DNA of 27,596 nt from positions 1 to 27,596 of IMG/VR virus record IMGVR_UViG_3300034102_001304; one strand, written 5' to 3'. The translations under genes were made by a program, and so were the position numbers. The stretch comes from a virus. The notes under the pieces were generated by a model that searched no databases, had not been told where the DNA came from, and saw only the letters and a program-made list of their open reading frames with translations. Positions 4,436 through 24,401 of this stretch are shown here, in pieces. Each line of letters begins with the position of its first letter. Position 1 is the stretch's first letter.

Positions 4436-4683
4436 TGCCCTCGCTCCCGCAAGATAAGGCAAACCACGCCATCTACGGTTCGCTGATCTTCCTAGCCGCC
4501 CTAGCCATCTTGCGCCGGCCTGACGCCGCCTACGCCCTCGTGGTGCTTGCAGCAGTGGGCAAGGAGGTGCTCGACTGGCTCTCCAACCAACGGTCAGAGA
4601 GGCCCACGCACGGAGTAGAATGGTTCGATGCCCTAGCAACTTGCGCCGGCGGGGCGGTGCCACTCCTTGCTAGGATGATCTGA
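4432..4683 (+). CDS. Small membrane protein with DKxNH...GKE...D motifs
   Basis: 83 aa. A hydrophobic segment covers residues ~14-45. Conserved-looking polar motifs surround it: DKANH near residue 8, GKEVLDW around residues 43-49, and HGVEWFDALATCAGG near the C-terminus. This DK.NH / GKE..D / eW.D pattern resembles small membrane proteins of the YfiM/DUF2279 type and similar phage proteins found near lysis genes. It starts with tandem ATGATG overlapping the previous stop and ends by overlapping the next start (TGATG). A lysis or envelope role is inferred from context; no enzymatic activity can be assigned. Confidence 0.6.
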   Translation: MMPSLPQDKANHAIYGSLIFLAALAILRRPDAAYALVVLAAVGKEVLDWLSNQRSERPTHGVEWFDALATCAGGAVPLLARMI

Positions 4684-4919
4684 TGGATTCGCAACACCTG
4701 ATCGACATAGGCCTTGCTACCGCTTGCGCGGTTACCGGCTGGTTTGCAAGGGAGTTGTGGTCAGCGGTCAAGGAGTTGAAAGCCGACCTGACCCGCCTAT
4801 CGGTCGAGCTACCCAAGACCTATGTGACGCGGGACGACTACAGGTCAGACCTTAAAGAGATCCGCGACCTGCTGGGGCGCATCTTCGACAAGCTCGACGG
4901 CAAGGTCGACCGCTCATAG
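4683..4919 (+). CDS. Small single-TM protein with coiled-coil tail (possible holin/spanin-like)
   Basis: 78 aa. One N-terminal hydrophobic helix (about residues 7-30, IGLATACAVTGWFARELW) is followed by a charged helical tail (about residues 30-75) with heptad-like leucines and a LGRIFDKLDGK motif near the end. A short membrane anchor with a soluble coiled coil fits inner-membrane spanins and several phage small membrane proteins in lysis regions. No lipobox partner (Rz1) was found, so spanin identity is unproven. It is the last gene of the rightward block. Its stop codon (4917-4919) overlaps the end of the leftward operon by six bases. Confidence 0.55.
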   Translation: MDSQHLIDIGLATACAVTGWFARELWSAVKELKADLTRLSVELPKTYVTRDDYRSDLKEIRDLLGRIFDKLDGKVDRS

Positions 4920-5156
4920 CAGCGCCGAGATACCCACAGTCACCATCTCGCTCTTGAGCTTTGACGGGTTGGTCTTCGCCATCACCCGCAGCGCCACTGC
5001 TGCGAACGTCTCAATGCCGGCCCAGGCGTCCTCTAGGTGCGGATCATTGAGCGCCAAGATGTGCGCTCTGATTGTCAGAACGTCAGCCATGTAGGCGTCC
5101 CGGATGGCGTCTATCGCTGCTTTAGTTGGGCGCATGGGAAGTCCACTAGTTGCCAT
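4914..5156 (-). CDS. Small phage protein of unknown function
   Basis: 80 aa, the last gene of the long leftward operon. It is predicted mostly helical, with a repeated hydrophobic pattern from about residue 12 to 65 and no cysteines or membrane segment. The ATG at 5156 overlaps the preceding gene by 46 bases. The internal ATG at 5135 (MRPTKAAID) would shorten that overlap to 25 bases and is a realistic alternative start. The stop overlaps the convergent rightward gene. I do not recognise the family. Confidence 0.5.
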   Translation of the reverse strand: MATSGLPMRPTKAAIDAIRDAYMADVLTIRAHILALNDPHLEDAWAGIETFAAVALRVMAKTNPSKLKSEMVTVGISALL

Positions 5157-7452: not shown

Positions 7453-7631
7453 AGCGTCACCCCGTAAGCCAGCGCCAGTACCCAGACACTGAAGGCAACG
7501 GCTCGGTTGAACCACGACCATCGGTTTCGGTAGTGGGTGATGGCGTAACCGTCGCCGCCGAAGGCTTCGTCGAGCGATCTACAGAAACGGCGAGTTGTTC
7601 CGTTGTGCTGAACCGGTGGTTGTTGTAACAC
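7443..7631 (-). CDS. Small C-terminally anchored membrane protein (RSLDEAFG motif)
   Basis: 62 aa with a GTG start at 7631. A polar N-terminal part contains RSLDEAFGGDGYA, a pattern I associate with short proteins in phage lysis regions. It is followed by NRWSWFNRAVAFSVWVLALA, a single membrane helix near the C-terminus. The gene lies almost entirely inside another reading frame, the zinc-ribbon gene, and ends by overlapping the lysozyme start. Both frames carry recognisable features, so I list both. A lysis accessory role is inferred from position. The start codon is uncertain. Confidence 0.45.
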   Translation of the reverse strand: MLQQPPVQHNGTTRRFCRSLDEAFGGDGYAITHYRNRWSWFNRAVAFSVWVLALAYGVTLWT

Positions 7632-7714
7632 TGGTATCTCCTTCTGGTTGAATTGTCGGGCGCGGCCCGAGTTGAAAGCACGCCGGCTGGCGCGTTACAG
7701 CGGGGGCACTGCAT
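7457..7714 (-). CDS. NrdR/Ogr-like zinc-ribbon protein
   Basis: 85 aa from ATG 7714 (MQCPRCNAPAGVLSTR), chosen because zinc-ribbon proteins of this type begin directly with MxCPxC; an ATG at 7729 is also in frame. The first ~40 residues contain CPRC and a later Cys followed by HRF (RRRYQCYNNHRFSTTEQL), the layout of the NrdR N-terminal zinc ribbon and small phage regulators. The C-terminal half is Ser/Thr/Pro-rich and probably disordered. A role in nucleic-acid binding or transcription control is inferred from the family. It shares about 175 bases with a membrane-protein frame and overlaps the upstream gene by 20 bases. Confidence 0.7.
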   Translation of the reverse strand: MQCPRCNAPAGVLSTRAAPDNSTRRRYQCYNNHRFSTTEQLAVSVDRSTKPSAATVTPSPTTETDGRGSTEPLPSVSGYWRWLTG

Positions 7715-7826
7715 ACAACGGCACCGCATTGCATCCGAGGTCTACCCAGTACTGCATCTCTTCGCGGCGCCGAGTGAGCAAGATGCAAACATTGCTCTCA
7801 AGGATCATCCAACCGATGTGCGTCAT
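7695..7826 (-). CDS. Very small phage protein with VPLYAVPP ending
   Basis: 43 aa from ATG 7826, which overlaps the upstream micro-gene stop by four bases (ATGA). The C-terminal motif RREEMQYWVDLGCNAVPLYA is like the '...PLYA.P' ending of many short phage proteins. The frame is open further upstream, but that part overlaps two other genes and has no supporting start. Function unknown. Confidence 0.5.
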   Translation of the reverse strand: MTHIGWMILESNVCILLTRRREEMQYWVDLGCNAVPLYAVPPL

Positions 7827-20132: not shown

Positions 20133-20876
20133 TCACGCAGTAGCGATGCGCACAACGCGGCGCTTGTGACCTAGAGCGTGATCTATGATCACGATATCTT
20201 TGGCGCGCTTGCTCGTGCCTGAGCAAAGCAAGCATGCGTTACATGTAGTGCGCTGCCCCATCTCTTTGCTGGCCGGACAGCGCGCCTCAGTCGATGCCTT
20301 GTCTTCGTTCAACGCAACGCGGAAGGTGCGCCATCCGCGCGCCTTCGCATCCGCATATTCTTGATCGTTGTCGACGCTGGCCATAAGCATGCCTGACCAA
20401 TCACCCGCGTCGATGTTGCGCCATTGATGCGAGTAGCCCACCCAATCGGCGCAGTACCGAATGATGCGATGCCACACCACTGCGGGAGCCGCAGCGGGAT
20501 CACCATAAGTGCCCATCCGCAAATTCTTGCCAGCAAGCGCTAGCGCGACCGTCTCGAGCGGCGCTTTGATGTAGCGTCCGCGTTTATATGCGTCATAGAC
20601 TGAGCGCACGCTTCGCCCCACGTTGACGTAGCACGGCGCTTCCCCGTTGCTTGCAGCGAGCAAAGGGCGATGCTTGCAATCGCCGCACACGCTTCCGTCG
20701 TCGCCTGTCTTGAGCGCTTCGGTCGGCGCGATATCGGCGCGGATAATAAAGGTCTGGACTAGTCCGCCCGTTTTCGCGTTTTCAGAATCCGCGTCAATCC
20801 TGTTGACGATGACAACAATGGGTTGCCCGTCAATGACGGACGGACCTTCGTATGCGATGTAACCGAGTATGCTCAT
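20133..20876 (-). CDS. Conserved phage protein with zinc-binding Cys motifs (DUF7227-like)
   Basis: 247 aa. N-terminal beta-rich part with GGLVQTFIIRADIAPTEAL, a CGDCKHRP motif and CYVNVG; middle with WVGYSHQWRNIDAGDW and MASVDNDQEYADAKARGWRT; C-terminal RCPASKEMGQRTTCNACLLC followed by DIVIIDHALGHK. Several Cys pairs look zinc-binding. I recall this layout from a widespread family of phage and plasmid proteins of unknown function, annotated as DUF7227 or similar, but the name is from memory. ATG 20876 overlaps the stop of the first operon gene. A replication-related role has been guessed for such proteins; I would not assign it. Confidence 0.6.
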   Translation of the reverse strand: MSILGYIAYEGPSVIDGQPIVVIVNRIDADSENAKTGGLVQTFIIRADIAPTEALKTGDDGSVCGDCKHRPLLAASNGEAPCYVNVGRSVRSVYDAYKRGRYIKAPLETVALALAGKNLRMGTYGDPAAAPAVVWHRIIRYCADWVGYSHQWRNIDAGDWSGMLMASVDNDQEYADAKARGWRTFRVALNEDKASTEARCPASKEMGQRTTCNACLLCSGTSKRAKDIVIIDHALGHKRRVVRIATA

Positions 20877-21181
20877 TCGGACACGCTGGCGTCAAAACCG
20901 TCGTTGAAAAAATCGACGATGGCATCGTGATCGTGCTTGCCGTCAATGCGCAGCTCATAGCGTGCGTTGTCAAAGTCGCATTCCGTCATGGTGTCGTATC
21001 CGTCGGTGTACAAATAGCTGACGTTCTCAGCATCGATGCCGCTGAAGGCGTGACATTCGTCGCTATCTTCAGCTGACAGCCAAGGGCTGTTGACGCTATG
21101 CCCATCGTTGACTGTGACTGTGATGGTTGTGACGGGATAGACGCGAGTCGCGCCGTTGACTGTTACCGCAAGTGAGATCAT
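20873..21181 (-). CDS. Very acidic first gene of the leftward early operon (candidate DNA mimic)
   Basis: 102 aa. I count 20 Asp/Glu against 4 Arg/Lys, a net charge near -16. The N-terminus is beta-like (ISLAVTVNGATRVYPVTTIT) and the rest is acidic with short helices. A small, highly acidic protein at the head of an early operon fits DNA-mimic anti-defence proteins (Ocr, ArdA or anti-CRISPR types), but there is no sequence motif for this. The ribosome binding site is weak (GAGTAAACACATG). No homologue was recognised. Confidence 0.6.
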   Translation of the reverse strand: MISLAVTVNGATRVYPVTTITVTVNDGHSVNSPWLSAEDSDECHAFSGIDAENVSYLYTDGYDTMTECDFDNARYELRIDGKHDHDAIVDFFNDGFDASVSE

Positions 21182-21267
21182 GTGTTTACTCTACTGTTGC
21201 GTCACTGCGGGCTGCAGCGACATGTAGGTAGTGTAACGCGCTATGTAGTGTGTTGTCTATGCCCCTA

Positions 21268-21277
21268 CTGTTAACAG
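21268..21277. repeat. Palindrome CTGTTAACAG in the early leader
   Basis: A perfect 10-bp palindrome preceded by A, giving ACTGTTAACAG, in the untranslated leader before the acidic-protein gene. It repeats the ACTGT...ACAG half-sites found near 12046 and 21412. Candidate operator. Confidence 0.4.
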
Positions 21278-21306
21278 GGTCAGCGCCCTGGTGGCGAGGT
21301 AGTCTT

Positions 21307-21387
21307 CTAGCGCGGTTCGGCAGCGGTTCGGTAGTCGGCGCGTAGCCATGGGGTGTCGCCGGGCGTGTAAGCGGTATAGTCACTCAT
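21307..21387 (-). CDS. Possible 26-aa leader peptide
   Basis: ATG 21387 to TAG 21307, product starting MSDYTAYTPGDTPWLRADYR. It sits just after the AT-rich promoter-like region and upstream of the first clear early gene. No ribosome binding site is visible and nothing recognisable is encoded. It could be a leader peptide or chance. Confidence 0.25.
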   Translation of the reverse strand: MSDYTAYTPGDTPWLRADYRTAAEPR

Positions 21388-21429
21388 TGTGTTATTGCTA
21401 GGAAAATTAACACTGTGTTTATATACAGT
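21388..21429 (-). promoter_or_regulatory. AT-rich promoter/operator region of the leftward early operon
   Basis: This AT-rich island, in otherwise GC-rich sequence, has two dyads: GTGTTA-N13-TAACAC (21389-21413) and ACTGT-N8-ACAGT (21412-21429). A minus-strand TATATAAA can serve as a -10; no good -35 is seen, so an activator or phage polymerase may be needed. It lies upstream of the early leftward genes. Confidence 0.45.
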
Positions 21430-21567
21430 ATGGCTATTTGAGCGGTTTTGCGCGGGGGGACTATGTGACTACATGACTACCGGGACGCATGCGCACGTGC
21501 GAAACCCGGACGCCCTCAACCCGCAGCTAAACGAGCGCGCAGCACTTACGGGCCGCAGCTGCTGGCG

Positions 21568-21695
21568 CATGTTGCAGTGCAGCATACTTGCCTGGACAAT
21601 GATTGCCTGGACAATGATTGCCTGGACAATGGTTGTCTAGTCAATGATTGCCTAGGCAATGTTTGCTTAGGCATGGACATGTTGCAGTGCAGCAT
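21568..21695. repeat. 18-bp direct repeats flanking the 15-bp dyad array
   Basis: CATGTTGCAGTGCAGCAT occurs at 21568-21585 and again, identically, at 21678-21695, bracketing the tandem array. Each copy is an imperfect palindrome (ATGTTGCA-G-TGCAGCAT). A partial inverted copy (GCTGCAACAT) lies at 21775-21784. These look like protein-binding sites rather than remnants of a transposon. Confidence 0.8.
21588..21677. repeat. Six tandem 15-bp dyad repeats (candidate origin or packaging site)
   Basis: Units begin at 21588, 21603, 21618, 21633, 21648 and 21663. The consensus is about TTGCCTGGACAATGA; the third to sixth units vary (TTGTCTAGTCAA, TTGCCTAGGCAA) while keeping dyad symmetry, and the fifth has a perfect 12-bp palindrome. 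The 15-bp spacing is ~1.5 helical turns. It lies in a 430-bp gene-free region directly upstream of the terminase genes, a typical place for a replication origin or a terminase recognition (pac/cos) site. Confidence 0.8.
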
Positions 21696-21802
21696 TCGAG
21701 AGGGGGGGGTAGGGCCCGCCGCCGGCCGGTCACGCTGGCGAAGGGTCCGCAAACAAAATTTTTTCATGGCCCACGCTGCAACATCCTTCGTAGCAACAAA
21801 CC

Positions 21803-21811
21803 TGATACACT
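21803..21811 (+). promoter_or_regulatory. Extended -10 promoter, possibly leaderless, for terminase operon
   Basis: TGATACACT is a TG-n plus TACACT extended -10 element. A start site 7 bases on would fall at about 21818-21819, directly at the ATG of the small terminase gene, which has no ribosome binding site. No clear -35 box is present. Confidence 0.45.
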
Positions 21812-21818
21812 CCCGCGC

Positions 21819-22220
21819 ATGAAATCCCTACCGCTAGAAATTAGGGAGATCAGGGCGACTGAGGCGCGACTGCAACAGATTTACGAAGCAGCGCGCTTGG
21901 GCCTAAAAGGCGACAGTTTGGCTCTGGCCTCCGGCATGCTGCCAGTTGAATACAGGCGGCTGTGTCAGCTAGACCCCATCGCCGAGATGGCGGCGCAAAA
22001 AGGCAAAGCCGATGCTGAGATGGCGCATGCAGGCAAACTGTCCGAGGCGTCGATGAACGGCGACGCCAAGGCCAGCCTGGCGATCCTTCAGCATGTCCAC
22101 GGTTGGACTGCCAAGCAAGAGATCAGCCTTGATGTCTATCAAAAGATCAGCGTCATCACCGCGCTGGAAGAAGCCCGTGCTCGCCTAACTTACGTTGAGG
22201 AAGTCAAAGATGGCAACTAA
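21819..22220 (+). CDS. terS: Terminase small subunit (putative)
   Basis: 133 aa from ATG 21819; the frame is open upstream through the repeats but that part is not protein-like. The body (AARLGLKGDSLALASGMLPV to HVHGWTAKQEISLDV) resembles small terminases, with a helical N-terminal DNA-binding-like segment and a long helix that usually forms the ring core. The subunit recognises packaging sites on phage DNA and recruits TerL. It lies directly downstream of the 15-bp repeat array and two genes before TerL, the expected place. Moderate sequence similarity only. Confidence 0.7.
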   Translation: MKSLPLEIREIRATEARLQQIYEAARLGLKGDSLALASGMLPVEYRRLCQLDPIAEMAAQKGKADAEMAHAGKLSEASMNGDAKASLAILQHVHGWTAKQEISLDVYQKISVITALEEARARLTYVEEVKDGN

Positions 22221-22878
22221 CAAGCTGATGCCCAAGTCGGACAACGCGCTTGAAAAACTACGGCACTTGCGCGGCGACGACAAGATTCGGCTAATGCGTC
22301 AGATTGCCAGTGAACAACCTCAGTACCAAGAGCTTGCGGACTACTTGATGGCGCGCAGCGCCATGCCGCCAGTCAAGGAGGGGTATCTACCTGGGGGCGC
22401 AAACGCGGAGTACAGCCGAAACACCATGTTTGGCCGTGAGCTTCCGGCTACCGGCGAGGTCACAATAAACTACGGGTCTAACGACCCCAACAGTCTTATC
22501 CACGAATTGACGCATGCTGCGCATTACCAGATGGGGCGGCAGTACCGTCAAGAAGGCGCAAAAGATGCGGAAGCCAAACAGCGGTTCAAAGACGCCTACG
22601 ACAGGCTACTAAGAACAAACGAACAAGGCCTAGTCGGGTTTGCCGCGCCTACGGTGTTTCAAACAGAGGCTATGGCCAGCCGTTTGGCACCTGACTGGAC
22701 AAAGCAAAACAGCCGCTACCGGTCATCGGTGTCAGAGCTACCGGCCTTTGCTATGGGTAACCAAGGCGCAAAAGGGGCGCCAGCGCATGTAGACCCGACG
22801 TTGTCAACAGAGTTCAGGGTATTGCTTGACATGGCGTTGCGTGACGCGCAAGCCAACCCGTACAAGACTACCCGCTGA
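22210..22878 (+). CDS. Zincin-like protein (HELTH motif) between the terminase genes
   Basis: 222 aa from ATG 22210 (11-base overlap with TerS). It contains SLIHELTHAAHYQ, a HExxH zinc-binding motif (His98, Glu99, His102, plus His105), and a later TEAMASRLA helix whose Glu153 could be the third ligand, as in gluzincin-type metallopeptidases. The N-terminal ~85 residues are helical then loop-rich, without a signal peptide. Metalloprotease activity is predicted but the substrate is unknown. It might process a virion protein or a host factor, or be a toxin-like fold. Position between TerS and TerL is unusual. Confidence 0.65.
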   Translation: MATNKLMPKSDNALEKLRHLRGDDKIRLMRQIASEQPQYQELADYLMARSAMPPVKEGYLPGGANAEYSRNTMFGRELPATGEVTINYGSNDPNSLIHELTHAAHYQMGRQYRQEGAKDAEAKQRFKDAYDRLLRTNEQGLVGFAAPTVFQTEAMASRLAPDWTKQNSRYRSSVSELPAFAMGNQGAKGAPAHVDPTLSTEFRVLLDMALRDAQANPYKTTR

Positions 22879-24401
22879 TGCAACTCCCAATCTACACATC
22901 CGCTGAAGAGCAGCGCCTAATGGTCGAGTTGTGGTCACCCGCGCTTGCGGATGATCCCGAGGCGTTTGTCCGCTTCGTGTTTCCCTGGGGGCAGAAGAAC
23001 ACGCCACTGGCGCAATTCAAAGGCCCGCGCAAATGGCAACGCGAGGTGCTCAACGACATCAAGGCGCACATCCAGCGGAACAAGGGGAAGGTCCAGATGG
23101 ACACCCTACGGGAAGCGGTCTCCTCAGGCCGGGGTATTGGCAAGAGCGCCCTAGTATCTTGGCTGGTGCTGTGGATGCTCACCACGCGCATCGGCGGGAG
23201 CGTAGTGGTTAGCGCCAACTCTGAGAATCAGTTGCGGTCGGTGACCTGGGCAGAACTGACCAAGTGGGCGGCGATGGCGATGCACTCGCACTGGTGGGAA
23301 GTGAGCGCCACCAAGCTGGTGCCCGCGAAGTGGATCACTGAACTGGTCGAGCGTGATCTAAAGAAAGGCACGCGCTACTGGGCCGCAGAGGGCAAGTTGT
23401 GGTCAGCCGAGAACCCTGACAGCTACGCGGGCGTCCACAACCAGGACGGGATGATGCTGATCTTCGACGAGAGCAGCGGCATACCAAACCCGATCTGGGA
23501 AGTGGGGGCAGGCTTCTTCACAGAGAACACGCCCGACAGGTACTGGTTTGCCTTCAGCAACCCGCGCCGAAACGAGGGTTACTTCTTTGAGTGCTTCAAC
23601 GCCAAGCGGGCGTTCTGGAACGCTCGCAGCGTGGACGCTAGAACGGTCGAGGATACGGACAAGGCGGTGTACGACCAGATCATCGCGGAGTATGGCGCGG
23701 ACTCATCCCAGGCCAAGGTGGAGGTGTACGGTGAGTTCCCCAGCGCAGGCGAGGATCAGTTCATTAGCCCAACGGTGGTGGATGAGGCGATGAAGCGGCC
23801 ACGGTACAAGGACAGTTCGGCGCCAGTGGTCATAGGGATCGACCCGGCACGGGGCGGCGCTGACTCGACGGTCATACTGGTGCGCCAGGGCCGGGACATC
23901 GTGAGCATCAAGCGGTACTCGGGCGAGGACACTATGACCATCGTCGGTCGGGTGATCGACGCCATCGAGGAGTTCAAGCCGGTGCTGACGGTGATTGACG
24001 AGGGTGGGCTGGGGTACGGTATACTTGACAGACTGAACGAACAACGATATAAGGTACGCGGAGTGAACTTTGGCTGGAAGGCCAAGAACTCGGTGATGTG
24101 GGGCAACAAGCGGGCTGAGATGTGGGGCACGATGAAGGACTGGCTGCGAAGCGCATCCATACCCGAGGATCGGCAACTCAAGGCAGACCTGGTGGGGCCA
24201 ACCAAGAAGCCTAACTCTAGCGGTACAATCTTCTTAGAAGGCAAGAAGGAAATGCGCTCAAGAGGTCTTGCCAGTCCTGATGCTGCTGACGCGCTGGCGG
24301 TGACATTTGCGTTCCCGGTGGCGCATCGGGAGTACACGGACAAAACTCCGCGCAGAACCTACGCGCCGCAGGGCGTCCTAACTAGCTGGATGGGATCATA
24401 G
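22878..24401 (+). CDS. terL: Terminase large subunit
   Basis: 507 aa. ATG 22878 overlaps the previous stop (TGATG). ATPase: Walker A SGRGIGKS (83-90), Walker B GMMLIFDESSG (191-201). Nuclease: VIGIDPARGGADS (Asp322), TVIDEGGLGYG (Asp374) and SPDAADALA (Asp468/471), the acidic triad of the RNase H-like headful or cos-cutting nuclease. TerL docks on the portal, pumps DNA into the capsid and cuts it. It is followed directly by the portal gene. Length and motif order match complete phage terminases. Confidence 0.96.
   Translation: MQLPIYTSAEEQRLMVELWSPALADDPEAFVRFVFPWGQKNTPLAQFKGPRKWQREVLNDIKAHIQRNKGKVQMDTLREAVSSGRGIGKSALVSWLVLWMLTTRIGGSVVVSANSENQLRSVTWAELTKWAAMAMHSHWWEVSATKLVPAKWITELVERDLKKGTRYWAAEGKLWSAENPDSYAGVHNQDGMMLIFDESSGIPNPIWEVGAGFFTENTPDRYWFAFSNPRRNEGYFFECFNAKRAFWNARSVDARTVEDTDKAVYDQIIAEYGADSSQAKVEVYGEFPSAGEDQFISPTVVDEAMKRPRYKDSSAPVVIGIDPARGGADSTVILVRQGRDIVSIKRYSGEDTMTIVGRVIDAIEEFKPVLTVIDEGGLGYGILDRLNEQRYKVRGVNFGWKAKNSVMWGNKRAEMWGTMKDWLRSASIPEDRQLKADLVGPTKKPNSSGTIFLEGKKEMRSRGLASPDAADALAVTFAFPVAHREYTDKTPRRTYAPQGVLTSWMGS

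Follow-up and report, generated by a model that had tools for sequence, protein, structure and literature searches.

The region upstream of the terminase genes

The window, by which we mean the whole stretch of 27,596 nucleotides analysed here, is a 27.6-kb virus record with genes for a P22-like portal, a terminase, DNA polymerase A and a primase-helicase. According to the ORF list, a divergent intergenic region (21182–21818) separates a leftward gene block, whose ORF at 20873–21181 borders it, from the putative small terminase subunit gene, terS (21819–22220, plus strand, 133 aa), with its ATG at 21819. The assignment of terS is based on its position before terL and on family-wide conservation; its own product matched nothing in Pfam or PHROG, and the homologous position in OR003940 carries the annotation “terminase small subunit”. 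The gene for the large terminase subunit, terL, lies at 22878–24401 on the plus strand (PHROG 2, E 3.6e-43). An ORF between the two (22195–22878, plus strand) contains a HELTHAAH (HExxH) motif and matches Peptidase_M91 weakly (E 0.051). It is missing from close relatives, L002 among them, in which terS is directly followed by terL. A search for similar DNA in named phages gave no match. A sister phage (G003, 39,439 bp) was found to have the same array as the window. No terminal repeats were found in this 39.4-kb sister contig. Contig ends near terS are spread across hundreds of bp and thus mark no terminus.

Within the intergenic region lie two exact copies of an 18-bp repeat, CATGTTGCAGTGCAGCAT, at 21568–21585 and 21678–21695. 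Between them, at 21588–21673, are six units of 15 bp, starting at 21588, 21603, 21618, 21633, 21648 and 21663, and each comprising a 12-bp imperfect dyad and a 3-bp spacer. The sixth unit, TTGCTTAGGCAT, is the most divergent. The 15-bp period (21588–21666, score 109) is the strongest tandem repeat that TRF detected in the window. Exact matches of TTGNCTNGNCAA in the window are confined to the array; when one mismatch was allowed, 23 matches were found versus 6.5 expected, and none of 100 shuffles reached 23. For CATGTTGCAGTGCAGCAT, no site other than the two exact copies was found in the window at up to three mismatches (0.04 expected in shuffles). The 15-bp array and the 18-bp repeats are far above chance, and the exact repeat, TRF and the shuffles all confirm the arrangement reported in an earlier note on this DNA, namely six 15-bp dyads between 18-bp repeats upstream of the terminase genes.

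The array DNA has a strong fold of its own, as expected for tandem dyads. A search for sigma-70 promoters and terminators beside the array returned one weak promoter-like match on the minus strand and no clear promoter. A coding repeat was rejected: the frames across the array yield just 5-residue repeats, as the earlier note had stated and the ORF list bears out, and close relatives lack the array.

To describe the conserved part of the unit, 70 units from 13 phages were compared. The conserved pattern is TTG..T.G.CAA, with the ends TTG...CAA and T6 retained. At dyad pair 4/9, C.G was observed in 41 units, C.A in 13, T.T in nine, C.T in five and T.G in two, and the compensated T.A never. The six units of the window have 4, 4, 4, 5, 6 and 4 complementary pairs out of 6. 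What is conserved is the TTG..T.G.CAA pattern and not symmetry as such, as changes within the dyad are one-sided. Thus, the earlier proposal that the units keep their symmetry while their sequence drifts holds for the ends and T6 and fails for the inner dyad.

The 15-bp units resemble operators of host marR genes

We ran a query of two units, separated by any 3-bp spacer, over a genome collection. The scan returned six loci, at least four of them at MarR-like genes; two of the latter are from Comamonadaceae and have the spacer TGA, as in the phage. In a genome sample centred on G001, a genome itself picked for having the motif, the double motif was present in 16 of 301 Comamonadaceae-family genomes, and the reversed control in none. 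In all 16 genomes, the site adjoins the 5' end of a MarR-family gene, in most of them 6–17 bp before its start codon. Elsewhere in the class sample, the double motif was found in 0 of 228 genomes.

A matrix was then computed from the phage units alone and used to scan approximately 3.4 kb around each of 30 MarR orthologues, which had been found by protein search. The best match was the marR promoter in 29 of the 30 host loci (Comamonadaceae); column-shuffled matrices, which served as the control, scored 1–20, with a median of 4. In all 22 loci with two or more marR-promoter sites, the sites were spaced in multiples of 15 bp (the scripted count was 20, the two others having a distant extra match 503 or 605 bp away). 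Four phage 12-mers are identical, letter for letter, to host operators, and the phage units vary mainly where host operators vary too. By their letters, spacing and phase, and from the tandem-repeat search together with the match to host marR promoters, the six 15-bp units are predicted to be MarR operators of the host type. Comamonadaceae are the likely hosts, an assignment that leans on the motif itself.

The host MarR proteins score below the NCBIfam cut-offs for several MarR subfamilies, the best match being SlyA. In one host, the gene after marR encodes an outer-membrane efflux protein, and a role of the host MarR as an efflux regulator is only a guess. A literature search for the 12-mers as MarR operators found none.

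The 18-bp repeats resemble PhaR operators

Both phage copies of the 18-bp repeat fit the R. eutropha PhaR motif YTKNTGCRNYGCANMAR, save for the two outermost bases (PMC12849132). The repeat differs at 1 of 17 bases from an S. meliloti site that is bound efficiently by PhaR, as determined by EMSA (PMC12542648). The palindrome TGYTGCANTGCARCA is present in 34 of 41 Comamonadaceae-family genomes, with 0 in the control, and all 41 encode a PhaR-family protein. In these genomes, the palindromes repeatedly form pairs at 57–59 bp from each other, with a phasin gene (PF09361) on one side and, diverging from it, a histone-deacetylase-like gene on the other. Judging from the exact repeat and the motif fit, the 18-bp repeats are predicted operators for PhaR, the polyhydroxybutyrate regulator. 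The whole region, 21568–21695, is accordingly annotated here as a predicted host-type operator cluster that comprises six sites of the MarR type and two of the PhaR type. The suggestion that the units look like protein-binding dyads was borne out, at the level of sequence, by the match of both motifs to operators of host regulators.

Predicted operators and a conserved element upstream of terS in related phages

Searches with TerS and TerL, the second of which reached more than 590 stretches with a TerL relative, yielded 117 loci that match TerS. Where TerS is 97–99% identical, the number of 15-bp units ranges from 0 to about 12; at least six loci at this identity (L006, L007, L083, L085, L086 and L099) are free of the array and have other short repeats instead. 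With such a range at near-identical TerS, the array is unlike a TerS recognition site.

A family element of about 63 bp is located directly downstream of the operator sites (21702–21764 in the window, plus strand). It comprises a G-run, AGGGCC, a variable middle, AACAA and a T-run, and 63 distinct regions upstream of terS contain it. In 35 of these, the G-run is no more than 12 bp from the end of the nearest operator (PhaR in 23, TetR-like in 7, MarR in 5); in the window, the right 18-bp repeat occupies this place, its motif ending 7 bp from the G-run. Operators of the three types end 0–7 bp from the element in most regions that have them, and 17 of the 63 regions have none of the PhaR, MarR and TetR-like operators. 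A conserved RNA fold of the element was rejected, as it had only two pairs, neither compensated. The element is possibly a late-operon control site or a packaging site.

Enrichment of the operators was tested in 85 distinct terS-upstream regions against 263 kb of the terL/portal side. The PhaR motif had 47 sites upstream of terS versus 0 on the terL/portal side (0.2 in shuffles), the TetR-like palindrome AGTNAGYRCYYACTAAC had 46 versus 0, and MarR dyads had 60 versus 14; Fur-like boxes occurred in 8 of the 85 regions. The commonest arrangement is a single PhaR site. PhaR-type sites recur beside the G-run, with varied centres, even at a TerS identity of about 72–77%. Across the family, the type of predicted operator changes and its position stays.

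Several further sequences were observed in the relatives. Arrays of AGTNAGYRCYYACTAAC at a spacing of ~22–35 bp lie upstream of terS in L010, L023, L104, L114, L116, L127, L129, L135, L136 and L143, and two of these relatives, L135 and L136, contain the E. coli SlmA consensus GTGAGTACTCAC without a mismatch. That the TetR-like palindrome is the Burkholderiales SlmA site found no support, its counts in 50 Burkholderiales genomes being like those of the control; in two genomes it lies between radC and coaBC, which is a lead only. If SlmA binds the AGTNAGYRCYYACTAAC-type arrays of relatives, phage DNA could block host division. Fur-box-like sequences such as AATGATAATCATTCTC precede terS in L137, L142, L144, L146, L147, L148, L149 and L151, and, by eye, in L108. 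The upstream part of the interval has 9-bp repeats of the CATGACTAC type (21455–21480 in the window; also in L083, L085, L099 and L103), and other simple repeats of relatives in the interval are GCCT, CGGTCGGCC, GCCGTCTG and GGTGGCT. In MW202483 (L153), a more distant relative, GTTTACNTAAAC palindromes at 4900–5030, perhaps another operator type, precede the terminase genes, and a PhaR-type site lies at 4544. At 490–531 of L157 (IMGVR_UViG_3300027821_000010, 47 kb), a phage contig that is not evidently related, three TTGGCTAGACAATGA copies keep a 15-bp phase and precede a small ORF.

A proposed role for the operator cluster

Our preferred reading, with a probability of roughly 0.55, is that the region is a cluster of host MarR and PhaR operators whose occupancy tunes the G-run/T-run element and the packaging operon. 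In the infected cell, a host MarR-family regulator and PhaR would bind the region, and the occupancy of the operators would switch or tune the neighbouring element and so the packaging operon. Control of the element is suggested because the nearest operator usually ends a few bp from this fixed element; as there is no clear promoter beside the array, it is position alone that points to control in cis. MarR proteins are usually released from DNA when they bind small ligands. For PhaR, it is the formation of PHB granules that takes the protein off the DNA (PMC12849132). The phage may thus read the state of its host with respect to chemical stress and storage, sensing small ligands via MarR and PHB stores via PhaR. 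Extra tandem copies of an operator would raise occupancy, and in related phages operators for other regulators would be swapped in at this position.

A reader encoded by the phage itself was sought among the 46 ORFs of the sister phage, which gave no Pfam match to MarR or PhaR, novel folds being outside such a search. Possible phage transcription regulators in the sister phage (L225/L226) are the product of one ORF with a zinc ribbon like that of NrdR and the product of another with a zinc finger of the Ogr/Delta type. The counterpart of the zinc ORF in the window is likely 7457–7729 on the minus strand, a guess from a Cys-rich ORF.

A broader and tentative reading, to which we give slightly less than an even chance, is that the phages of this family share a socket for exchangeable regulators: lineages would plug in operators of different host regulators next to a fixed element before terS. 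These would include PhaR, MarR, the TetR/SlmA-like palindrome and Fur-like boxes, and perhaps others. If so, an exchange of short DNA alone would be enough to change which host signal controls packaging, or which host protein is hijacked.

The main rival to cis control is titration. Replicated phage genomes would draw the regulators off host promoters and derepress host genes to the phage's advantage, and phage transcription would not depend on the sites. A dosage effect would be in keeping with the many tandem repeats of a single operator and with a copy number that varies between 2 and about 12 among phages that are almost identical; the upper number is more than cis control needs. No promoter was seen in the array, and decoy arrays titrate regulators in E. 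coli (PMC7826281). Titration is indifferent to position, yet operators of three types adjoin one element, and the prevalence of single PhaR sites does not favour a dosage effect. We regard titration by itself as rather unlikely, and it could act alongside cis control.

It is improbable that the array consists of neutral repeats at a hot spot of slippage or recombination, with the operator likeness arising incidentally from captured promoter DNA of the host. The simple repeats that many relatives hold in the interval, such as GCCT, CGGTCGGCC, CATGACTAC and GGTGGCT, and the quick change in copy number would fit such an origin. Chance capture would not be expected to place several regulator types at one family-wide position, to maintain PhaR-type sites beside the G-run between phages with divergent TerS, or to confine the variation of the MarR units mainly to host-variable positions.

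A packaging or replication site, at which TerS would bind the units or a replication protein of the phage would bind them as iterons, was favoured by the earlier note and is very improbable: the dyads are in tandem, the array adjoins terS and the neighbouring conserved element could be a packaging site, but near-identical TerS proteins occur without the array, the units have their counterparts in host marR promoters, and the minimum of the cumulative GC skew is near 11 kb, with no turn at the 21.6-kb array (in a 27.6-kb fragment of a genome that is not closed). The position near terS may be meaningful all the same, given that the operators usually adjoin the conserved element upstream of it.

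If cis control by host regulators is true, phages of freshwater bacteria use the stress and storage regulators of their hosts via interchangeable sites and encode no regulator. Short phage repeats, which are usually dismissed, would become a route from sequence to the prediction of host and regulator. The sensing of host state by phages (PHB stores, MarR ligands and, in relatives, perhaps division control) would become testable with small DNA fragments.

Comparison with known systems

Like iterons and phage pac sites, the array consists of short tandem dyads beside terS; unlike them, it is not retained with TerS, and its design is identical to that of host operators. SlmA sites (GTGAGTACTCAC; PMC3116907, PMC3573117) are contained in the TetR-like arrays of relatives (L135, L136) or resembled by them, whereas the window has no GTGAGTACTCAC.

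The predicted MarR operators share 12-bp dyads, 3-bp spacing and 15-bp phase with the autoregulated marR promoters of Comamonadaceae (L167–L169, L177–L191, L229–L258). These promoters usually have one to three sites, mostly 6–17 bp before marR, whereas the phage has six, 145–231 bp upstream of terS, and its array is not accompanied by a marR gene. The predicted PhaR operators fit the published motif of phasin-gene operators (PMC12849132, PMC12542648) and, like the sites at phasin promoters of Comamonadaceae, are present as a pair. They differ in being 110 bp apart instead of 57–59, in having MarR-type sites between them and in having no pha gene nearby.

In one literature collection, a search for MarR or PhaR operators in phages, for a 15-bp operator array of this kind and for a slot with exchangeable operators turned up no report of any of them. 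The use of host regulators by phages is already known, and the nearest case is the cluster of CtrA sites in alphaproteobacterial phages, described as “lytic deferment”, for which gel shifts and reporter assays established CtrA as the regulator (Mascolo et al. 2022, PMC9437464). The authors of that study cite LexA and Spo0A as other examples (PMC9437464). CtrA clusters serve one regulator, whereas the predicted operator cluster described here and in relatives combines MarR-type and PhaR-type sites, tandem 15-bp arrays and exchanged operator types. No phage gene encodes CtrA, and here the ORFs of the sister phage gave no Pfam match to either regulator. In both systems, sites for a host regulator, predicted ones in the present case, are concentrated in one large intergenic region, which in one CtrA case also lies between divergent gene blocks, and close relatives gain and lose sites (PMC9437464).
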